Assembly: GCF_026230175.1 (NCBI RefSeq)
Contig: NZ_CP104208.1
Location: forward strand, 3,286,001-3,350,000
From: Desulfovibrio mangrovi
Lineage (GTDB): Bacteria > Desulfobacterota > Desulfovibrionia > Desulfovibrionales > Desulfovibrionaceae
Direction of reading: 5' to 3'
DNA: 64,000 bases
The notes under the pieces were generated by a model. The model ran no database searches, had not been told where the DNA came from, and saw nothing but the letters and a program-made list of their open reading frames with translations. The position numbers were made by a program, and so were the translations under genes. Shown here in pieces: positions 3,835 through 28,792 of the stretch. The stretch's first letter is position 1. Each line of letters opens with the position of its first letter.

Positions 3835-4779
3835 TTATGCCCGCCGGTTCAGTGAGCCGGACGTGCTGCCGGAAAGTCCGGCCGGATGCAGTATGCTTGT
3901 GAGCACGTCATGGATACCTGCGGGGAGCGGGCCGCAGCCGAGGCAGCTGAGCTGTGTGGCGTGCTGCTGTCGTCTTGCATCCCGGACGCGGCAAACTGTT
4001 GCCGCGACCTTGGGAGCGGCGCGTTCCAGAAAGAGCCTGTAGGCCATCCTTTCGGTTCCTGCAAGACATTGTATGAGCACGTGGCCGCTGGCAGGGAAAA
4101 CGGCTCCGAAAGTGATTTTGGTCGTACCCTCTGTCCGGGGGGGCAGCAGCATCTCCACCCCACGGGCCTCCGGCAGCAGCCACGGCAGGTGGCAGAGCAC
4201 GCCCGAGCGGCTTGCGGCCAGCAGGGCATTTACCCGCAACAGGCTATGCTGAAGCGTGGTGAATAGCGCAAGGCCTTCTTCATGCTGGCTGATATGGGTG
4301 ATGAAAGCGTTTCGCGCGGGTGATGCGGCGCCTCCCTGCGGAGCCATGCCGTCGGTGGACACTGTATTGTCTTCGTCGAGGCTCAGAGTGGGCCAGAGGT
4401 GTTTGTGCAGGTGGGCATCAAGGGCATCCCGAGCCGCCAGATAGTCGCGGATGATGTCGGCAGGGGAAAGCGTGTGGCCTGTCGCATGGGTGCTGTCCTC
4501 GTCCACCTCTTTCAGGATGATCTCCGGCACCAGCTGTACCACCAGAAAGCGCAGGGCCACGCCAGCCTCAGGCGTAGTGTGCAGCTGTGCCAGCAGCTCT
4601 TGTCCGCCCACGTGCACCCATGCCATGCCTCCGCGCACCCAGCGCAGAATCTTGCCGTGCAGAATCTGGCCCACATGGTGGGACCGCCGGAAGGCGGCCG
4701 CCCTGCTGGCGGTTTCCTGACCGGTTGTGGTGCCTTGGCCTTGCCAGTTGACTGGCGTTGTGCGGTTGAGGGGCTTCAT
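3835..4779 (-). CDS. uncharacterised protein at the end of the flagellar gene block
   Basis: This is a 314-residue protein that I do not recognise. The first third contains a small beta-rich stretch (about residues 35-90: GQILHGKILRWVRGGMAW, then a VVQLVPEIILKEV run) reminiscent of the RNA/ligand-binding region seen around flagellar hook-length control proteins, but the match is weak. The rest is rich in Ala, His and Leu without transmembrane segments. It sits between the DUF2802 gene and dus on the same strand, so co-transcription with the flagellar block is plausible but unproven. GC content and codon use resemble its neighbours. Confidence 0.6.
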   Translation of the reverse strand: MKPLNRTTPVNWQGQGTTTGQETASRAAAFRRSHHVGQILHGKILRWVRGGMAWVHVGGQELLAQLHTTPEAGVALRFLVVQLVPEIILKEVDEDSTHATGHTLSPADIIRDYLAARDALDAHLHKHLWPTLSLDEDNTVSTDGMAPQGGAASPARNAFITHISQHEEGLALFTTLQHSLLRVNALLAASRSGVLCHLPWLLPEARGVEMLLPPRTEGTTKITFGAVFPASGHVLIQCLAGTERMAYRLFLERAAPKVAATVCRVRDARRQQHATQLSCLGCGPLPAGIHDVLTSILHPAGLSGSTSGSLNRRA

Positions 4780-4910
4780 GACATTTGGGAGGTGCTAGGC
4801 TGCCTGTACCGGCGTTTGGGGTGGAAAGCCGCAAGACGGCATCGGATTGAAGGGGTGTCCGGTATCATGCCCCGTCGTGCTGTCGTCGTTATGGGGCCGT
4901 AGTCCCGCAG

Positions 4911-5330
4911 CTATCTTCCCGCCTTCATGAGAATGAGTTCGACTTCGTCCACGGAAAGTCCTGTGGCGCGGGCGAGCTGCTGGGGTGAGTGCCCTTTGCG
5001 GTTGCCGTCCAGAATCATTTCCCGCAAAAACTGGGGGGAGCGGCTCATGCTCTCGGCCTGCCTGATGAGTTTTTCCAGTCCGGCGGCACGGGCCTCCAGC
5101 TGAATGTCCAGCTGCCTGAGCTGTTCCTGCCGTTCGCTGAAGGATTCCACCAGTTCCTGCTCCAACTGTGCGTTGAAGTGCATTCTGGCGAGCAAGGCTT
5201 CCTGCTTGGCCTGCATGTCGTTGAGCAGGGATTCCGAGCGCTTGAGGCGTATAAAGAAGACGAACAGGAGGATGAGCAGAAGCAGCTCGGTGAGGCTCAG
5301 GGCAAGAAGCATCCAGTGGGAGAATTGCAT
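4911..5330 (-). CDS. membrane-anchored coiled-coil DUF2802 protein
   Basis: The 139-residue protein has one N-terminal transmembrane helix (about residues 6-26), a long acidic coiled coil (about 30-95), and a C-terminal segment with a helix-turn-helix-like run QLARATGLSVDEVELIL, as seen in DUF2802. DUF2802 proteins occur in flagellar and chemotaxis loci of proteobacteria, and their role is not known to me. The gene lies in the minus-strand motility block between two uncharacterised genes, with a gap of about 96 bp to the gene on its 5' side. Confidence 0.78.
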   Translation of the reverse strand: MQFSHWMLLALSLTELLLLILLFVFFIRLKRSESLLNDMQAKQEALLARMHFNAQLEQELVESFSERQEQLRQLDIQLEARAAGLEKLIRQAESMSRSPQFLREMILDGNRKGHSPQQLARATGLSVDEVELILMKAGR

Positions 5331-5426
5331 GGCGTCTCAGGCGTGTCCGTTAGTGACGGTAGAAGGTTGTGTGTTGCTGAGGCGGGACCGGGCAGCAAGG
5401 GGCACCCGTAACGGGCCGCATGCCTG

Positions 5427-5762
5427 TCAGACCTTGACGTTGAGAATATTTCCCTGCCATGGGCTGCGGGCTTCCTGCGTGGCCTGTTCGTCCTCTCCTC
5501 CGGTGTCAGGCTTGGGCTTGGCCTTGCGCTTGCGCGCATATCTGCGGCCGCCCGCCCCACGGCCATCCTGGTCCACAATAGCCTGAGAGTCCTTGGACTG
5601 CTGGGTTTTTTCCACAGCACTTTGCTCACGCTTCAGCGTCTCCGCGGCATTCTGCTTGGCGGCTGCTTGCTGCGCCTCTGGATGGACCGTTTCGTTGTGG
5701 GCTAATTTCTCCACATGACCCATCTGCGCGAGAAGAACAGGCAGGCTGGCGTCCAACGACAT
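5427..5762 (-). CDS. small basic protein downstream of fliL-like gene
   Basis: This 111-residue protein is unrecognised. It starts one base after the stop of the fliL-like gene, so it is almost certainly translated from the same message. The N-terminal half is Ala/Gln/Glu-rich and probably helical, the middle is very basic (GGRRYARKRKAKPKP), and the C-terminus ends in SPWQGNILNVKV. The conserved-looking C-terminal tag and the position suggest a small flagellar accessory protein, but that is inference. Confidence 0.65.
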   Translation of the reverse strand: MSLDASLPVLLAQMGHVEKLAHNETVHPEAQQAAAKQNAAETLKREQSAVEKTQQSKDSQAIVDQDGRGAGGRRYARKRKAKPKPDTGGEDEQATQEARSPWQGNILNVKV

Positions 5763-5763
5763 C

Positions 5764-6489
5764 TTACTTCACCAGATAGTTTTCTATGAGCAGATCCTCG
5801 AACTGGCCGTTGTTCATGTATTGGTTGATCACGGCCAGCAAGTCGGCCTTAAGCACATCCACATTAGTCTTATCGGACAGAAAGACCAGATTCTTGTTAC
5901 GCAGATAATAGAAAATGGCATCGCGCAGAATGGTCTTCTTGCTCCCCGCTTCCCATGAAAGTTTTTCGTTGTTCGTGGGTGCTGCAAATTTGCATACGAG
6001 GAAGCGGGTGTGGCCTTCCTTATCCTTCATCTCCACCCAGAAAGGTTCCCATGACACCACAAAGGCATCCTGAGGTTCCGGCTCCGGTTCGGGGGCCTGG
6101 TCGGGCTGAATAGTCACGACCTCAGGCTCAGGCGGCAGCTCCGGACGGGGCGCGGGCTTGAGCACCAGCCATGCGAGAAGGACGAGCAACAGCACGCCCG
6201 CACCTGCAAGAGAGATAACTATCTTTTTGTTGCCGAGCAACGCCTTCAGGGCGTTGGGCTTTGCTTCCGTGGAGAGTTCAAGGCTGACCGGTTCCGAAGC
6301 GGTCGGCGGTGGGGGAGCCGCCTCTTCCTCTTCATCGTCATCGTCAAGGAAGGGGGCATCTTCAAGGTCCAGCTCGACCTTGTCTTCGCTAGGCGCGCTT
6401 CCGCCATTATCCGGCACGCTCAGCTCTTCGGTGTCGAGCTGCGCTTTCTCAGAAAAGAGGCCGTCTAATGAAAGATCTTCATCTGCCAT
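5764..6489 (-). CDS. fliL: FliL-family flagellar basal-body-associated protein
   Basis: The 241-residue protein has an acidic cytoplasmic N-terminus (about residues 1-80) with a DDDEEEE run, one transmembrane helix (about 89-110), a Pro/Glu-rich linker, and a periplasmic FliL-like domain (about 140-241). FliL surrounds the stator units at the flagellar base and supports motor function. The long acidic extension before the membrane helix is larger than in enterobacterial FliL (about 154 residues). It is 51 bp downstream of cheY and one base upstream of the next small gene. I see no clear Shine-Dalgarno sequence before the start. Confidence 0.82.
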   Translation of the reverse strand: MADEDLSLDGLFSEKAQLDTEELSVPDNGGSAPSEDKVELDLEDAPFLDDDDEEEEAAPPPPTASEPVSLELSTEAKPNALKALLGNKKIVISLAGAGVLLLVLLAWLVLKPAPRPELPPEPEVVTIQPDQAPEPEPEPQDAFVVSWEPFWVEMKDKEGHTRFLVCKFAAPTNNEKLSWEAGSKKTILRDAIFYYLRNKNLVFLSDKTNVDVLKADLLAVINQYMNNGQFEDLLIENYLVK

Positions 6490-6540
6490 GGGCGAATATG
6501 GTCACAGGGCAGCCCTCCGCCGGAGCGGAGGGCATTTGGC

Positions 6541-6921
6541 CTAGGGGAAAATCTTGTCGATTTTCTGCTTCATGGTTTCGGCGGTGAAAGGTTTGACGAT
6601 GTAGTTCGAAACCTTTGCCTGCACCGCTTCAATGATGTTTTCCTGCTGGGCTTCCGCCGTGACCATGAGGAACGGCAGGTCGCCGAATTCTTCGCTGGCG
6701 CGGACCTTGCGAAGCAGTTCGATGCCGGTCATGTTCGGCATGTTCCAGTCGGAAATGATGAAGTCGATCTTATCCTTGTTGAGGGTCTCCCACGCGGTGG
6801 TGCCGTCGTCGGCCTCAACAATGTTGGTGAAGCCGAGCTGGCGCAGGATGTTCTTTACGATTCTGCGCATGGTGGAGAAGTCGTCAACGACAAGAACACG
6901 CATATTGGGATCGAAAGCCAT
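6541..6921 (-). CDS. cheY: chemotaxis response regulator CheY
   Basis: This single receiver domain of 126 residues binds the flagellar switch FliM when phosphorylated by CheA. The acid pocket D13/D14, phospho-acceptor D58 (ISDWNMP), T88 and K110 are all present, and the sequence is close to classic CheY (LRQLGFTNIVEADDG). An AAGGAG ribosome-binding site lies 7 bases before the ATG. It sits 20 bp after fliA within the motility operon. Confidence 0.96.
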   Translation of the reverse strand: MAFDPNMRVLVVDDFSTMRRIVKNILRQLGFTNIVEADDGTTAWETLNKDKIDFIISDWNMPNMTGIELLRKVRASEEFGDLPFLMVTAEAQQENIIEAVQAKVSNYIVKPFTAETMKQKIDKIFP

Positions 6922-6941
6922 GCGGAACTCCTTAAAAAACG

Positions 6942-7757
6942 TTAGATGCTCTCGGTGGTGCCATACGATGTATGGAATTCCCGGCGCAACCGCTGCAGGG
7001 CCTGAGTATGCAACTGCGATACACGACCTTCGGTTATGCCCATAACTTCGGCGGTTTCACGCATATTTAATTCGTCACTATAATAGAGTGACAATACCAG
7101 CTTTTCCCTAGGTGTCAATTGATCGATAAGTGATGCAACCCTTTCAATCAGTTCCTGTAGTGCAGTAGCCTGAAAAGGTTCTCCGTCAATGGAGTCGCGT
7201 CCTTCAGTGGAAAAGGTCTCCTGAATGGCGTCAAGGCTCAGGCAAAGCTGATTCTGTAGGGCCTCAAGCCCTATACGGACTTCTTTTTCATCAAGTCCGG
7301 TGGCCTGTTGCAGTTCCTCTTCCGTGGGAACGCGGCCCTTGTCGCTTTCTATTTTGTGTATGGCTTCTTCCAGTTGCCGCACTCTGTGGCGCAGGCTGCG
7401 GGGGAACCAGTCCAGCCTTCGCAATTCGTCAAGCATGGCGCCACGTATGCGGCTTTCCGCATAGGTGTCGAACTTGATGCCCATCTTGGGATCGAATTTG
7501 CCAAGCGATTCCATGAGGCCGAGCGTGCCTGCGCTGATGAGTTCGCCAAGCTCCACGTTCTTGGGTAGTTTGGCTTTCAGGCGCAGGGCAAGGAACTTGA
7601 TCTTGGGCGCATAGTGCCGGACAACGGACTCCTGCTGGCGGGGAGACATGTCCGGCCAGGCAACGGCACCAGATTCAAGCAGTTCCCACGGCTCTTTGCC
7701 GCCTGCAGGACTATTGCCTGAAGAGGAGCTTTTTCCAGAAGAACTTGATATTTCCAT
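6942..7757 (-). CDS. fliA: flagellar sigma factor FliA (sigma-28)
   Basis: FliA directs transcription of late flagellar and chemotaxis genes. The protein (about 271 residues) has sigma region 2 (GTLGLMESLGKFDP, RIRGAMLDELRRLDW), region 3, and region 4 with the ERVASLIDQLTPREKLVLSL and GRVSQLHTQALQRLR helix-turn-helix. The start overlaps the 3' end of flhG by 47 bp. The ATG at 7757 follows an in-frame TTG at 7760, and neither has a strong ribosome-binding site, so translation is probably coupled to flhG. The Ser-rich N-terminus (residues 3-18) is a short variable extension. Confidence 0.94.
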   Translation of the reverse strand: MEISSSSGKSSSSGNSPAGGKEPWELLESGAVAWPDMSPRQQESVVRHYAPKIKFLALRLKAKLPKNVELGELISAGTLGLMESLGKFDPKMGIKFDTYAESRIRGAMLDELRRLDWFPRSLRHRVRQLEEAIHKIESDKGRVPTEEELQQATGLDEKEVRIGLEALQNQLCLSLDAIQETFSTEGRDSIDGEPFQATALQELIERVASLIDQLTPREKLVLSLYYSDELNMRETAEVMGITEGRVSQLHTQALQRLRREFHTSYGTTESI

Positions 7758-8526
7758 CAAGGTTGGCCGATACTTCCCAGTTTTGAATTGTCTTCGCCAC
7801 CTGCTGCACTGCGGTGCAGGCTGGGCCTCCGTTCGGGTTGGCGCAGAAGGGGCGCTGGTTCACCACTGCCTTGCGGACTTCCGGGTCACGGGGGATGAAG
7901 CCCAGCAGATCCAGCGAAACGCCGGAGAGGAAATGGTCGCAGGCTGCATAGAGCCGCGTGTACATTTCCTTGGCGGTCTTGGGATCGGGGGCCATGTTCA
8001 CCAGCACCTTGAAGTGTTCCACGCCGTGGTTCAGCTTCATCACCTTGATGAGGGCGTAAGCATCCGTCAGCGAGGTGGGTTCCGGCGTGAGAACGACAAT
8101 GCGTTCCTGCACTGCAAGGTTGAAATATAATACGTTGTCGTTGATGCCTGCGCCGGTGTCAACGATCAGGTAATCTACCTTGTCCTCCAGCGCGTCCATG
8201 GCTTCCAGCAGTTCCAGCTTCTGTCCGGTGCTGAGAGAAAGCATTTCGCTCATGCCGGAAGAAGCGGGCAGGATTTTGAAACCGTAGGGCGTGTCAAAGA
8301 GGATGTCGTCGAGTTTGGCACCTTCGTGGAACAGATGGAAGAGGTTCTTGCTCGGGGTCATGCCCAGAAGGACATCCACGTTGGCAAGGCCCAGGTCGGC
8401 ATCAAGCAGCACCACGTTCTTTCCGGAACGGGCGAGGCTGCAGGCAAGGTTGACAGAAAGGTTTGTCTTGCCCACGCCTCCCTTGCCGGAGGTAATCGAA
8501 AAAACCAGAGGAAAGTCGCCCTTCAT
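7711..8526 (-). CDS. flhG: flagellar number regulator FlhG/FleN (MinD-like ATPase)
   Basis: This 271-residue MinD/ParA-family ATPase controls flagellar number and placement with FlhF and, in several species, the sigma-54 activator of flagellar genes. It has the deviant Walker A motif GKGGVGKT (residues 14-21), the switch segment DADLGLANVDVLLG, and VDTGAGINDNVLYF. The gene lies 20 bp after flhF, and its 3' end overlaps fliA. A polar flagellum is the usual context for an FlhF/FlhG pair. Confidence 0.95.
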   Translation of the reverse strand: MKGDFPLVFSITSGKGGVGKTNLSVNLACSLARSGKNVVLLDADLGLANVDVLLGMTPSKNLFHLFHEGAKLDDILFDTPYGFKILPASSGMSEMLSLSTGQKLELLEAMDALEDKVDYLIVDTGAGINDNVLYFNLAVQERIVVLTPEPTSLTDAYALIKVMKLNHGVEHFKVLVNMAPDPKTAKEMYTRLYAACDHFLSGVSLDLLGFIPRDPEVRKAVVNQRPFCANPNGGPACTAVQQVAKTIQNWEVSANLDGNIKFFWKKLLFRQ

Positions 8527-22917: not shown

Positions 22918-23204
22918 GCAGCGGCACCTACCCTGTTTACTGAAAAATAACAAGCTGCTGTGCTACTGTGGCAGCCGGAGGCGGGCACTGAGGCGGGTTG
23001 CGGTGCGGGCGGCGTTGCAGTCGGCAGGAACGTGGCGAGGCGGGCTCTGTAATGATGTTCACCAAAGCACAATTGAGTATGGGGAAATAGTGTACTCGAA
23101 GGGCATGTTCGGTTTATAGACGGCCAAGACGATACAACGCCATGAATCAGGCGGCTGCGCCGGTGCGGGCGAAGGCATGCCGGATGCAATGCAAGGAGAG
23201 TTTG

Positions 23205-24293
23205 ATGGTTGCTGCAGATCTGATACCTGCTCCGGACGCAATTCCGGTTGCGTGGGGCTGGCTGGAGGTGCTTCTGATAGTCACCTTTGCCGCGCATATT
23301 TTATTGATGAATGCCGTCGTAGGCGGTGCCCTGCTGTGTCTTGTCCGGTCCGTATCCTTTCGCAGCGATGCTGCAGTGCGGACGCTTTCCCGTTCGCTTC
23401 CCACACTGTTCGCTCTGACAGTGAACTTCGGCGTTGCGCCGCTGTTGTTTGCGCAGATGCTCTACGGACAATTTTTCTATACCAGCTCCGTCCTCATGGG
23501 GAGCTACTGGCTCTCGGTGGTATTTCTCGCCATCATCGCCTATTCCGGGTTGTACACCTTCAGATATAAATATGAGGTGTGGCGGCACAGCAGGCTCGTT
23601 CTGGCCATGGTCTGCGCCGTGCTGCTGTTCATGGGGTTCCTCTTCGCCAACAACATGACCATGATGCTGCAGCCAGAAGCGTGGTTGGCGTATTTTGCGG
23701 ACGCCGGCAACGGAGGCGGCAGCATGAAGGGGCTGCTGCTGAACACAGGCGATCCTTCGCTGTTGCCCCGGTACATGCATTTCATGCTGGCTGCGGCGGC
23801 CGTGGGCGGCCTGACGCTGGCCCTGCTGTTCGAGCATCGGCTCGCCAAGGGGACTGTGAGCGAATCCGAAGCTGCGTCGCATATCCGGTTCGGCATGATG
23901 TGGTTTTCGGTCTGCACCGGCATGCAGGTGCTGGTCGGCGGAGCCTTCCTCGGTTCTCAGCCCGCTGGTATCCGTGCGCTCTTTCTTGGCGGCTCTGACC
24001 TCTACACCGGCGCACTGGCGATAGCACTGGCCTGCGTGGCCGTGGTGCTGCATTACGCGGCGCGCTTCCGCGTGAAGGCCACGGCCGTGGCGCTGACGGC
24101 AACCGTGCTGGCCATGTCGCTTGTGCGGGCCCTGTTACGCTCGGCATACCTTGAGCCCTATTTCAGCGTACGCGACCTGCCCGTGCATGCTGATTACTCG
24201 CCGATGATTCTCTTTTTCGTGAGCCTGCTCGGCGGGCTCTGGTGCATCTTCTACATGGTCCGGCTGGCGTTCCGCCCGGGCAGGGAGGGCTAG
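23205..24293 (+). CDS. polytopic membrane subunit paired with cytochrome bd-like/multiheme protein
   Basis: The 362-residue protein has about nine hydrophobic helices and no heme c motif. Segments such as NFGVAPLLFAQMLYGQFFYTS and PRYMHFMLAAAAVGGL resemble the membrane domain of cytochrome bd-type subunit I relatives, and several histidines (for example H in PRYMHF) could bind heme b. The ATG at 23205 has AAGGAGAG 5 bases upstream. It ends 2 bp before the multiheme gene, so the two surely form one complex. The role is probably in quinol oxidation or reduction, but the electron acceptor is unknown. Confidence 0.7.
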   Translation: MVAADLIPAPDAIPVAWGWLEVLLIVTFAAHILLMNAVVGGALLCLVRSVSFRSDAAVRTLSRSLPTLFALTVNFGVAPLLFAQMLYGQFFYTSSVLMGSYWLSVVFLAIIAYSGLYTFRYKYEVWRHSRLVLAMVCAVLLFMGFLFANNMTMMLQPEAWLAYFADAGNGGGSMKGLLLNTGDPSLLPRYMHFMLAAAAVGGLTLALLFEHRLAKGTVSESEAASHIRFGMMWFSVCTGMQVLVGGAFLGSQPAGIRALFLGGSDLYTGALAIALACVAVVLHYAARFRVKATAVALTATVLAMSLVRALLRSAYLEPYFSVRDLPVHADYSPMILFFVSLLGGLWCIFYMVRLAFRPGREG

Positions 24294-24295
24294 TC

Positions 24296-26947
24296 ATGGA
24301 ATATCCGGTCTGGTGGATTCCCGAACTTTCCGGCGGCTTCATCATCGCCTGCATGGCGGTGTTTCACGTGTTCATTGCCCATTTTGCCGTGGGCGGGGGC
24401 CTGTTCCTTGTCCTGACCGAACGCAAGGCTGTGCGTGAGAACGACAACCGCATTCTCGAATATGTGCAGGCGCACACCAAATTCTTCCTGCTGTTGACCA
24501 TGGTGGCCGGCGGTATGACCGGCGTGGGCATCTGGTTCACCATCGGCCTGCTTTCGCCTGCGGCCACATCCACGCTGGTGCACAGCTACGGCTTCGGCTG
24601 GGCCATCGAGTGGGTGGCCTTTCTGTGCGAAATAGTAGCCCTGCTGCTGTATCATTACCGCTTCAAGCAGATGTCGCGCCGTGACCACATGGTTCTCGGC
24701 TGGTTCTATTTCTTCTTCGCCTACATGTCCCTGTTCGTCATAAACGGTATCATCACCTCCATGCTGACGCCCGGTGACTGGCTGCAGACGCAGCGCTTCT
24801 GGGACGGCTTCTTCAACCCCACCTTCTGGCCCTCGCTGGCGCTGCGCACCTCCATCTGCTTCATGGCCGCGGGACTCTTTGCGCTGGTAACGGCCATACG
24901 CATCAAGGAAGAAGGCACCCGCGAGCGCATGGTGCGTTATGCCGTGCGCTGGGTGGGCATTCCGTTTCTGCTCATGCTGCCTGCGGGCCTCTGGTATCTG
25001 TTTTCGCTGCCCGAACCGCAGTTTTCCATGGTGCTGCAGAAGTCTGCCCAGACCCCGCAGCTGGTGCGCGTGTTCTATCCTCTGACGGTGGCCATCATTC
25101 TGGGCGGCCTGGCTGTGGCCCATATCCGCACCACGGCCTGCCGTGCCGCGCTGGTCGGCGTGCTCGTTCTGGCGGGGGTGGGACACATGGGCACCTTTGA
25201 ATGGATACGCGAGGCAGGGCGTCGTCCCTACCTCATCCACGGGCATACATGGTCCAATTCCGTGAAGGTGTCCGAGACTGCGACTATCCGGCAGGAAGGA
25301 GCCTTGCAGCATGCAAAATGGGTGAAGCTGCGCGAGGTGACCCCGCAGAATTTGCTCGCAGCAGGTGAGGAACTCTATCGTCTGCAGTGTCTGGCCTGTC
25401 ACAGTATAGGCGGGCCCATGCTTTCTGCCGAAACACGGACCGCCGCCCTGACCCGTACGGGCCTTGAGGCCCAGCTTTCCGGTCAGGGCAGACTGCGTAA
25501 CTTCATGCCACCCTTCCTCGGTACCGAGGGGGAACGACTGGCCCTTGCCGCCTATATTGCCGACGTGATCCAGAAGCGTGAGCCGGACGCAGCCCCGGTT
25601 TCGCCGCAGGCGCTGGCGACCATCATTCCTGCGTTTAACAGGCATGAAGCGGAATATGTGCTGGTTGCGTGGGCGACCATGGGCATGACGACCATTTCAG
25701 ACAATAATGACCGTTTCACCATGCAGCCCCCCGGGGTGACGGTTCGGGCCCAGTTGCTGCGGCGTGATGATACGCCGGAACTGCTGACCGAAGGCGTTTC
25801 CCTGAGCTATCGCATGGAGAAGGGATTTGAGACCCCCTCCAAACACGTGACCTTCTGGGACCATGCTGCAAGCCTGTTCGGCATTGATCTTCCCGAGAAT
25901 GCGGGGATTGGTCCGGACGGCCTTGCCGGAGCCCCCATGGAGGGACAGTTCGCACCGGATGAGGATCACAGGGCCTTTGTGGTGCACGGGCTGGCGGCCA
26001 TGCCCTACAACAATGACGGCTCGGTCAATCCGTATCCGCTGCTGACGGTGGAGGCGCGTGACGAATCCGGCGAGCTTCTGGCCGAAACGCAGGTGGCCGT
26101 GCCTGTTTCCACGGAGTGGGGCTGCCGGAACTGCCATGACGGCGGCTGGCGGGTGGCTGACAGGACCGGCATGTCGGATGAGACGGCCGGGAACATTCTG
26201 GCTGCTCATGACAAGATCAACAAAACGGATCTGGTGGAGCGTGCTGCCAAGGGCAATCCCGTTCTCTGTCAGAGTTGTCATGGCTCAGCCAAGCTGGGCA
26301 CCGAAGGGCAGGAAGGGCTTATCGGCTTCTCTGCCGCTGTGCACGGCTGGCACGCCAACTATCTTGGCGAGAAGGACGATCGCAGTTGCAAGAGCTGTCA
26401 TCCGGCCGCGCGGGCCAGTTTTACGCAGGGGTTGCGTGGCGTGCATGCCTCCAAGGGGCTTACCTGCATGAACTGTCACGGCACGTTGGAAGATCACGCC
26501 CTTGGCCTGCTCAAGAAGGAAAAGGAGCTTGGCAAGCGTGGTGTGGACAAGCTGATGACCTATCTCTCCCCCCGCGTGGCAGAGTCCTATGAGGATGTGC
26601 AGGCCCGCTCTCCCTGGGTGAGCGAACCGGATTGCACCGTCTGCCATGACTTCTTCTCCACGCCGCCTGCGGATGCCTCTGCCGCACACAAGTGGACATC
26701 GGGCGATCCCGCAGAGCTGTACAGTGAGAGGCAGGACGACATGGGGGCCATCATGTGTCAGGCCTGCCATGGTTCCACACACGCCCTGTATCCGGCGGAG
26801 AACGCCTACGGGCTGCTGCGGAATAACATTATCCCGATGCAATATCAGCAGCTTGCCGGGCCGTTGGGCCGCGGAAACAACTGCATATGCCACACCCGCG
26901 AACTGACTGTGTATGAATCGGCCCACCACCCCATCATCCCCAAATAG
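24296..26947 (+). CDS. cytochrome bd subunit I-like / multiheme cytochrome c fusion protein
   Basis: The 883-residue protein starts with about eight transmembrane helices (residues 10-300) similar to cytochrome bd oxidase subunit I-like proteins (SGGFIIACMAVFHVFIAHF, GFGWAIEWVAFLCEI). A monoheme cytochrome c domain follows (CLACH 365-369), then a periplasmic multiheme domain with CRNCH 610, CQSCH 658, CKSCH 698, CMNCH 724, CTVCH 780 and CQACH 821, giving seven canonical heme c sites. An eighth site, CICH at 863-866, lacks one residue and is probably not a normal heme site. The protein likely links the quinone pool to periplasmic multiheme electron carriers. AGGGAGGG lies just before the start, and a strong terminator follows. 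Confidence 0.85.
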   Translation: MEYPVWWIPELSGGFIIACMAVFHVFIAHFAVGGGLFLVLTERKAVRENDNRILEYVQAHTKFFLLLTMVAGGMTGVGIWFTIGLLSPAATSTLVHSYGFGWAIEWVAFLCEIVALLLYHYRFKQMSRRDHMVLGWFYFFFAYMSLFVINGIITSMLTPGDWLQTQRFWDGFFNPTFWPSLALRTSICFMAAGLFALVTAIRIKEEGTRERMVRYAVRWVGIPFLLMLPAGLWYLFSLPEPQFSMVLQKSAQTPQLVRVFYPLTVAIILGGLAVAHIRTTACRAALVGVLVLAGVGHMGTFEWIREAGRRPYLIHGHTWSNSVKVSETATIRQEGALQHAKWVKLREVTPQNLLAAGEELYRLQCLACHSIGGPMLSAETRTAALTRTGLEAQLSGQGRLRNFMPPFLGTEGERLALAAYIADVIQKREPDAAPVSPQALATIIPAFNRHEAEYVLVAWATMGMTTISDNNDRFTMQPPGVTVRAQLLRRDDTPELLTEGVSLSYRMEKGFETPSKHVTFWDHAASLFGIDLPENAGIGPDGLAGAPMEGQFAPDEDHRAFVVHGLAAMPYNNDGSVNPYPLLTVEARDESGELLAETQVAVPVSTEWGCRNCHDGGWRVADRTGMSDETAGNILAAHDKINKTDLVERAAKGNPVLCQSCHGSAKLGTEGQEGLIGFSAAVHGWHANYLGEKDDRSCKSCHPAARASFTQGLRGVHASKGLTCMNCHGTLEDHALGLLKKEKELGKRGVDKLMTYLSPRVAESYEDVQARSPWVSEPDCTVCHDFFSTPPADASAAHKWTSGDPAELYSERQDDMGAIMCQACHGSTHALYPAENAYGLLRNNIIPMQYQQLAGPLGRGNNCICHTRELTVYESAHHPIIPK

Positions 26948-26981
26948 GGCGGCGGTGGTGAACTGCTGATGACTGACAAGG

Positions 26982-27018
26982 AAAAAGAGATTGTTCCAGT
27001 TTGGAACAATCTCTTTTT
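26982..27018 (+). terminator. strong terminator after the cytochrome operon
   Basis: A 17-bp perfect stem (26982-26998 with 27002-27018) with a 3-base loop, followed by further T residues. Confidence 0.93.
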
Positions 27019-27355
27019 TTTCTTCAAACTGACGAAGGGTTTTCTTTCGAGCGCTGGGCCCCAATCTATTAAAGGGGGCGGGAAAGTTTTTTCCGTTGAG
27101 TGGTAGATAGAGCGTGTAAGTATGTGCTAACTCTCATTCAATGGTAAATGCAGGGGTTATGGTATTTGCATAAAATGCTGTTTTAGTTCTGTATTTCATA
27201 ATGTGGCAACGTGGTGAAACATAGCTATAGATAATATCTATCGATGCTATTTGTTATGCCTGTTTCATATTGACATATTTTTCACATTCTACTAGGTCGG
27301 ACAAACGTAGTAAGTGACTTGGGTTAGAGGTCAACTTAGTCATGTGAGGAAATCA
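27019..27355 (+). other. AT-rich control region upstream of the TauE/SafE operon
   Basis: There is no gene in this 337-bp stretch, which is much richer in AT than its surroundings. TTGACA at 27270-27275 could be a -35 element, but the best -10 candidate (TACTAG at 27290) is only 14 bases away. A nested palindrome lies at 27221-27250. A long leader before the exporter gene suggests regulated expression. Confidence 0.5.
27221..27250. promoter_or_regulatory. nested palindrome, possible operator
   Basis: ATAGATAATATCTAT (27227-27241) is a perfect 6-bp-arm palindrome, and ATAGC/GCTAT at 27221-27225 and 27246-27250 add outer arms. It lies about 105-135 bp before the exporter start and just upstream of the TTGACA element, a fitting place for a regulator site. 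The regulator is unknown. Confidence 0.45.
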
Positions 27356-28357: not shown

Positions 28358-28792
28358 ATGAGCAAAGAACAAGCTTGCAACGTTTCCACCGAGGCCACTC
28401 CGGAGCAGTTGCTCTACGCCAGCATTCTTGAAAAGGGTGCTAATGCCGGCCTGTTGATGATGATCATCTCCTACCTTCTGTACGTGTTGGGTGTATTTGA
28501 GCCCCACGTGCCGATCGAGACCGTGGTTGCCAACTGGCACCTCGGCATCAACGACTACCTTGCCGCCACCAATTCGCCTCAGGGCTGGAACTGGGTGGCT
28601 CTGCTGGGCAAGGGCGACTTCATGAACTTCATCGGTCTCGCCCTGCTGGCACTGCTGACTATCGTCTGTTACGCAGTGCTCATTCCCGGCTACCTGCGCT
28701 GCAAGGACAAGGCGTACACCTTCTTCGTCATTGCTGAAATTCTTGTACTTTCCCTCGCTGCCTCCGGTCTGGTTGGCGGCGGCGGTCACTAG
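28358..28792 (+). CDS. DUF1634 membrane protein, TauE/SafE partner
   Basis: The 144-residue protein has three hydrophobic helices (about residues 26-44, 83-107 and 114-138). DUF1634 genes are typically found directly after TauE/SafE exporters, and the product is probably a subunit or regulator of the transporter. GGGAGG lies 8-9 bases before the ATG. The operon ends in the hairpin at 28818-28844. Confidence 0.83.
   Translation: MSKEQACNVSTEATPEQLLYASILEKGANAGLLMMIISYLLYVLGVFEPHVPIETVVANWHLGINDYLAATNSPQGWNWVALLGKGDFMNFIGLALLALLTIVCYAVLIPGYLRCKDKAYTFFVIAEILVLSLAASGLVGGGGH

Follow-up and report, generated by a model that had tools for sequence, protein, structure and literature searches.

What a membrane domain of the cytochrome bd type does when it is joined to a chain of c-type heme sites, and from which donor it would take its electrons, is the question raised by a two-gene unit of Desulfovibrio mangrovi. 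The unit occupies positions 23205 to 26947 of the window, the stretch of 64,000 nucleotides analysed here (NCBI RefSeq assembly GCF_026230175.1, contig NZ_CP104208.1, positions 3,286,001 to 3,350,000 of the forward strand), and consists of gene A', encoding a membrane protein, and gene A, encoding the fusion. An earlier interpretation made from the DNA letters alone (the sequence-only reading) had recognized a two-gene module at this place, whose coordinates and reading frames are both confirmed, and had described a bd-like membrane domain fused to a multiheme cytochrome, which is borne out by Pfam and by the AlphaFold2 fold. The answer favoured here, with a probability of about 0.6, is that A'–A is an oxygen reductase of the bd superfamily, of the kind that pairs two subunits of the CydA type (CydA–CydA'), and that its donor is a periplasmic c-type cytochrome rather than quinol. 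This reading draws on the conservation and loss of residues and on structural models of both proteins. The features of the unit, all on the plus strand, are as follows:

23193–23198, +, Shine-Dalgarno sequence AAGGAG of gene A', read from the sequence
23205–24293, +, gene A', start ATG at 23205, 362 amino acids (aa), CydA-fold paralog
24283–24289, +, Shine-Dalgarno sequence GGGAGGG of gene A, read from the sequence
24296–26947, +, gene A, start ATG at 24296, 883 aa, CydA-like domain fused to c-type cytochromes
24296–25264, +, residues 1–323 of A, CydA-like domain without the Q-loop (VIA fold match, hhalign, columns in 86 sequences)
25340–25570, +, residues 349–425 of A, class I monoheme cytochrome c (CLACH at 365–369 and candidate distal ligand M404, both invariant)
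25652–26119, +, residues 453–608 of A, predicted Ig-like beta domain (secondary structure of the model; weak fold matches only, Z about 5 to Ig folds)
26111–26944, +, residues 606–883 of A, seven-heme domain with six CxxCH and one CICH (Pfam, motif count)
26882–26893, +, CICH at residue 863, last heme site of A, one residue short of CxxCH
26979–27021, +, stem-loop with T-run, likely intrinsic terminator of the A'–A unit (-27 kcal/mol, z -6.1)

Oxygen-site residues and hemes of protein A

The membrane part of A is recognized by Pfam as Cyt_bd_oxida_I above the cut-off (E 4e-12), and in the AlphaFold2 model (predicted local distance difference test, pLDDT, 92.2; alignment of 52 sequences) residues 7–323 adopt the CydA fold, the best VIA match being cytochrome bd subunit I (Z 32.0 over 314 residues). 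The alignments behind the models hold 52 of 86 A rows and 54 of 83 A' rows, those left after a 72% identity filter. Moreover, A aligns globally to 30 canonical CydA sequences (hhalign E 1.1e-7), and this alignment pairs H24, E112, E306, and R309 of A with H19, E107, E445, and R448 of CydA, respectively. E. coli CydA itself stands outside the alignments, and positions are named by E. coli numbering, in which H19, E107, E445, R448, H186, and M393 are the known sites. The counterparts of the two-heme oxygen site are kept throughout the relatives of A, namely H19 in all 85 rows with any residue at that position and E107, E445, and R448 in 86 of 86 rows each; E105, R184, E302, and R305 of the same domain are also invariant.

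The quinol side of CydA is gone from A. Where CydA has H186, which ligates heme b558, 63 of the 86 sequences have Phe, 22 Leu, and one Tyr, and none has His, while the column aligned to M393 (A266 in A) holds Met in a single sequence out of 86. A also has some 80 residues fewer between helices 6 and 7, where CydA bears the Q-loop, and its model shows a short loop at this place. The loss of the Q-loop and of the b558 ligands would thus rule out quinol entry into A in the manner of canonical cytochrome bd. Compared with the latter (CydAB, the qOR family), A shares the CydA fold and the counterparts of H19, E107, E445, and R448, whereas it is devoid of the Q-loop and of the H186 and M393 counterparts and bears eight fused heme c sites.

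Seven CxxCH motifs are found in A, at residues 365, 610, 658, 698, 724, 780, and 821, followed by the CICH at 863, in agreement with the seven canonical sites and one degenerate site counted previously. The monoheme domain proposed in the sequence-only reading stands as well, while its six-heme domain has to be extended to seven sites, the last of them shorter than CxxCH by one residue. In the c-type part, Pfam reports MtrC/MtrF II-IV, Cytochrome_C7, and Cytochrom_c3_2 above their cut-offs, together with a stretch of CBB3-type cytochrome c slightly below its own (25 against 27 bits). The first seven heme motifs are invariant in 86 distinct sequences, including that of the window, and the eighth reads CxxCH in 72 of them and CxCH in 13, the remaining one being lost at a contig end. 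The carriers of CxCH are ten Halodesulfovibrio sequences, the window's included, and three of one other genus, and they keep both Cys residues, the His, and a downstream His-His pair. Besides positions 26882–26893 (+) of the window, the shortened motif occurs in loci L004–L011, L016, L017, L019, and L035. A sequencing slip is ruled out as the origin of CICH, since CxCH leaves the reading frame intact and is shared by 13 of the 86 sequences. A search pipeline in PMC11218250 includes CXCH among its heme motifs.

Eight His residues outside the motifs are conserved in the seven-heme domain, with H638, H683, H686, H717, H829, H877, and H878 at a frequency of at least 0.97 and H734 at 0.93. Eight such residues for seven sites suggest, at the level of sequence, that these are bis-His, electron-transferring hemes. 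Invariance extends across all domains of the protein and comprises 68 columns in the 86 sequences. The CydA-like part of A ends after helix 8; in the topology of CydA, the Q-loop is periplasmic, and both points together place the cytochrome c domains of A in the periplasm, a location that would match the requirement of heme attachment.

A second CydA-like subunit, protein A'

The partner gene had been described only as polytopic. This part of the description holds, with nine long predicted helices and no CxxCH in A', but the nature of the partner as a CydA-like paralog had been missed. Its AlphaFold2 model (pLDDT 93.7, alignment of 54 sequences) has cytochrome bd subunit I chains as its best VIA matches (Z 26.5 over 324 residues); of the other solved structures set against the models of A and A', alternative complex III and PsrC reach Z values of 18.2 or less. 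Foldseek ranks 9r2g_D, a chain of 330 residues, first for A'. At the profile level, A' aligns with the membrane domain of A along 271 columns (hhalign E 7.9e-9), and its direct comparison with canonical CydA is weak (E 0.052, 32 columns, four CydA rows), with no alignment obtained when a global match to 30 CydA rows was imposed. Searches of Pfam and NCBIfam gave no match for A', a profile search against PDB sequences gave chance matches only, and Cyt_bd_oxida_I recognizes two of the 54 sequences aligned for A' when E values up to 1 are allowed. The kinship of A' with CydA therefore depends on the link through A and on the fold. On the profile link via A and the predicted fold, A' is a CydA-fold paralog of A, with which it makes a CydA–CydA' pair, and in this respect the second subunit would differ from that of canonical cytochrome bd, being a CydA-like paralog to judge by profile and by best VIA matches. 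An unrelated membrane protein was also considered for A' and is ruled out by the profile and fold comparison.

The residues retained by A' are of another kind than those of A. H31, R189, H192, M304, R308, and R312 are invariant in 83 of 83 sequences, the window's own included, and two of them, H31 and H192, provide a His at the positions of H19 and H186, respectively, in every sequence. At the E107 position A' has Ala, Gly, or Ser, and the E445 position is mixed, with Asp or Glu in 43 of 83 sequences. M304 could perhaps be a heme ligand. Since A keeps the residues of the oxygen site and A' keeps the positions of H19 and H186, the two subunits are complementary in their retained residues as judged from the alignments. 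The model of A' shows only short loops at the position of the Q-loop.

Kinship and distribution of the module

Relatives of A (E up to 1e-10) occur in 91 of 149 genomes of the family and relatives of A' (E up to 1e-5) in 86 of 149, counts that take in sister forms, multiheme-only relatives, and split genes, and all 86 genomes with a relative of A' are among the 91 with a relative of A. A single alignment spanning at least 847 residues of A is obtained in 38 of these 149 genomes. Among the best 80 of 173 relatives, which are the named loci, the nearest are from Halodesulfovibrio (81% and 62% identity), and those outside the family, mostly metagenome bins, include Desulfobacterales, Desulfobulbaceae, Desulfuromusa, and Thermodesulfovibrio as well as records of KSB1, Bacteroidetes, Verrucomicrobia, Gemmatimonadales, and Krumholzibacteriia. 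Thus, the module is a widespread family that extends from the Desulfobacterota into several further phyla. Of eight genomes reached by way of relatives from other phyla, some of them incomplete bins, three gave no hit for canonical CydA.

The two genes travel together. All 74 loci with both genes in full length have A' next to A in the same orientation, with a median gap of 1 bp (2 bp from the A' stop to the A start in the window). Moreover, the distances among A' sequences correlate with those among A sequences (r 0.84, against 0.14 in the best of 1000 permutations), a value to which shared genome descent contributes. In a quick tree of 97 sequences (25 of 86 A, 25 of 83 A', 14 of 30 CydA, 10 of 13 sister A, and 8 of 11 sister A' rows, together with OR-N-like rows), in which several long branches meet and the deeper joins are unsure, the A-type subunits of three forms make up one branch (Shimodaira–Hasegawa-like approximate likelihood ratio test, SH-aLRT, 98), the A'-type subunits another (100), and canonical CydA a third (100), with the OR-N-like rows separate (71). 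A is thereby set with two other cytochrome-c-bearing CydA–CydA' modules, apart from the quinol-oxidising CydA.

The first of these two is a three-gene sister module composed of a membrane-anchored diheme cytochrome c, a CydA-like protein with a monoheme cytochrome c, and a CydA'-like protein with two CxxCH. Its A-type subunit aligns with A at hhalign E 1.1e-52 and its A'-type subunit with A' at E 1.1e-29 (13 sequences each), and the residues lost and kept in the A-type subunit are identical to those of A; unlike A'–A, it has no seven-heme domain, possesses an extra diheme gene, and carries heme sites on its A'. This form is found in other Desulfovibrionaceae, at 4192–7997 (+) of L146, 4394–8189 (-) of L147, and in L155–L165; at least the stretches of L149, L152, and L155 are miscalled by wrong-strand frames. 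The second is a minimal two-gene form of two Nitrospirota genomes (L206, 2896–5434, -; L207, 2907–5442, -), with a CydA-like protein bearing a monoheme cytochrome c next to A', no seven-heme domain, and a reversed gene order. The His of the H186 position is missing in all three A-type groups and is kept in 11 OR-N-like proteins of Nitrospirota. A further relative, at 5600–7522 (-) of L148 in a sibling genome, is a standalone protein with eight CxxCH that is homologous to residues 352–874 of A and has no bd domain, and frames of about 580–650 aa like this one are also present in other genomes of the family.

The module has to be placed among the bd enzymes already described. Murali et al. 2021 reportedly defined the OR-C and OR-N families. 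A'–A may belong to OR-C, whose members carry heme c. PMC13189123 distinguishes qOR, OR-C, and OR-N within the bd family, assigns the quinol site to qOR, and names OR-C as a non-qOR family. According to PMC10839748 and PMC12342949, bd-like CydA–CydA' enzymes of OR-N are known from Nitrospinota and Nitrospirota; the former source regards cytochrome c, in place of quinol, as their likely donor and describes them as pairs of CydA-type subunits, like A and A', and their function still awaits experimental confirmation. The 11 OR-N-like proteins, whose label is deduced from phylum, length, and pairing, share with A the Arg at positions 184 and 305, which is absent from 14 CydA sequences, whereas they differ from it by the His at the H186 position, the absence of CxxCH, and, in the quick tree, a branch of their own. 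A literature search, with most subscription papers beyond its reach, found no description of a fusion between bd and a multiheme cytochrome among the papers listed. Non-quinol families having been described already, what may be new here is the eight-heme, two-paralog form, which OR-C could cover.

The unit comprises two genes only. The Qrc, Tmc, Hmc, Nhc, and Ohc complexes contain further subunits beside the cytochrome. Searches of Pfam, NCBIfam, and PDB sequences gave no match that would assign the module to a characterised complex, in keeping with the claim of the sequence-only reading that this is none of the well-known Desulfovibrio complexes; NCBIfam HmcA scores 9.1 bits on A against a cut-off of 400, and no search by name was made for Qrc, Tmc, Nhc, and Ohc. 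The cc(o/b)o3 cytochrome c oxidase belongs to the heme-copper superfamily, whose fold is unrelated to cytochrome bd. It resembles the proposed activity of A'–A as a cytochrome-c-fed oxygen reductase of a sulfate reducer, D. vulgaris, where its donor is c553 (PMC4383621, seen in part).

Proposed function, competing explanations, and significance

In the proposed mechanism, electrons would enter A at its seven-heme domain, delivered by a periplasmic cytochrome of low potential such as tetraheme c3, which hydrogenase or formate dehydrogenase would reduce. The next carrier would be the monoheme cytochrome c domain, which comes after membrane helix 8 and lies on the periplasmic side; this domain would hand the electrons over to the two-heme oxygen site of the membrane domain, and O2 would be reduced there to water, probably with protons from the cytoplasm. 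A' would take the place of CydB and complete the heterodimer, probably with a b heme of its own, perhaps the low-spin heme. The role of the enzyme could be oxygen scavenging or microaerobic respiration in anaerobes. A more far-reaching proposal, for which the odds fall somewhat short of even, is that sulfate reducers and other anaerobes possess here a third, overlooked terminal oxidase, namely a bd-type cytochrome c oxidase with its three-heme set split between the oxygen site of A and the low-spin heme of A', which would use its own eight-heme wire and couple periplasmic oxidation of H2 or formate to O2, bypassing the quinone pool.

Genomic neighbours provide a second line of evidence. In the 80 named loci, flavodiiron protein occurs six times, ODP protein and rubrerythrin four times each, and desulfoferrodoxin and cydAB three times each; names come from Pfam on ten cluster representatives, one per cluster (two for ODP/flavodiiron), with cydAB assigned by eye, and the gene calls keep the longest frame, some on the wrong strand (e.g., clusters 5 and 7), so that neighbours may be missed. 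At least one oxygen-defence gene is present in 14 of the 80 loci versus about 2.3 expected by chance, and ODP/flavodiiron genes in 10 of 80 versus about 0.5, expectations computed from the nine genes of this type that the window's genome carries and from loci averaging 13 kb; the other 66 loci have none. In L041, L042, L045, L047, L091, and L094, the genes for flavodiiron protein, HEAT protein, A', and A follow one another in this order on one strand, with cydAB additionally upstream in L047, L091, and L094. Directly downstream of A in L063 (10703–15531, +), a Nitrospirota locus, stand genes for an ODP protein, a methyl-accepting protein, and a PAS/GGDEF/EAL protein, and similar clusters are found in L079, L099, and L113, the Pfam names being those of L063 only; this cluster is possibly an oxygen-sensing set.

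In the window itself, the unit is flanked by genes for a type III pantothenate kinase, a cyclase-like protein, a TauE-type transporter, and a hexapeptide-repeat protein. The stem-loop at 26979–27021 is not among the elements listed by a consensus scan. A protein of 144 aa encoded after the transporter gene (28358–28792, +) has no Pfam family at E 0.001. The host genome is a single contig of 3.95 Mb with one copy of A.

Several points weigh against oxygen reduction with cytochrome electrons. Residues of oxygen chemistry that are kept across a superfamily do not prove that O2 is the substrate, and E105 of A meets E99 only by way of a one-residue gap, facing Ala when ungapped. A single genome supplied the gene density behind the chance estimate, and the set of 14 loci is small, clustered, and non-independent, six of them sharing one cluster and four being from Nitrospirota, so that they represent perhaps three independent arrangements; the window's own locus, between housekeeping genes and TauE, has no oxygen-defence neighbour. 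Moreover, the host already encodes one canonical cydA and one heme-copper COX1. Lastly, H2 oxidation in D. vulgaris is reported in PMC4383621 to be linked to the bd-quinol oxidase, and thus a cytochrome-fed bd enzyme is not needed to account for H2-driven O2 uptake in that organism.

The sequence-only reading had offered two roles, electron exchange with menaquinol and oxygen detoxification. The second is better supported owing to the invariant oxygen site, the loss of the Q-loop, H186, and M393, and some oxygen-defence neighbours, while the first still has a place, as A' may carry a b heme. Its elaborated form is a menaquinol:cytochrome c oxidoreductase, in which A' would oxidise menaquinol at its b heme and electrons would leave through the membrane domain and the c hemes of A towards periplasmic carriers or extracellular acceptors with no O2 reduced. 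This explanation, which we regard as unlikely although the strongest of the competitors, would account for H192 at the b558 ligand position of A' together with the invariant M304, R189, R308, and R312, for the match of the heme domain to the MtrC/MtrF profile, and for the standalone eight-CxxCH relative devoid of a bd domain in a sibling genome. However, A has no Q-loop and the model of A' has nothing but short loops there, the invariance of the oxygen-site residues of A is left without an obvious reason, and the recurrent neighbours are oxygen-defence genes.

These neighbours could also be read in favour of a protective, non-respiratory reductase of another small molecule, such as nitric oxide (NO) or peroxide, which would act at the site of A with periplasmic electrons. 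ODP/flavodiiron genes are the commonest neighbours (10 of 80 loci), and the flavodiiron/ODP family is also known for NO reduction, but desulfoferrodoxin, rubrerythrin, and cydAB are found next to the module too and point to oxygen and its products; we regard this explanation as improbable. That the module has no turnover and acts as a redox sensor or persists as a structural relic, to which the methyl-accepting-type gene cluster that follows the ODP gene downstream of the module in four Nitrospirota loci might point, is very improbable in view of the 68 invariant columns spread over all domains of A and of the retention of its relatives by 91 of the 149 family genomes.

An oxygen reductase fed by periplasmic cytochromes would have a place in the physiology of these bacteria. 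In several Desulfovibrio species, O2 uptake is fastest with H2, and hydrogenases and c-type cytochromes have been proposed as the route, according to the part of PMC4383621 available. At the end of such a route to O2, A'–A is a concrete and conserved candidate enzyme. It also illustrates how a bd enzyme may be rebuilt for cytochrome electrons, a property proposed for OR-N. If this reading is true, the module would represent an unstudied way for oxygen-sensitive bacteria to remove oxygen.

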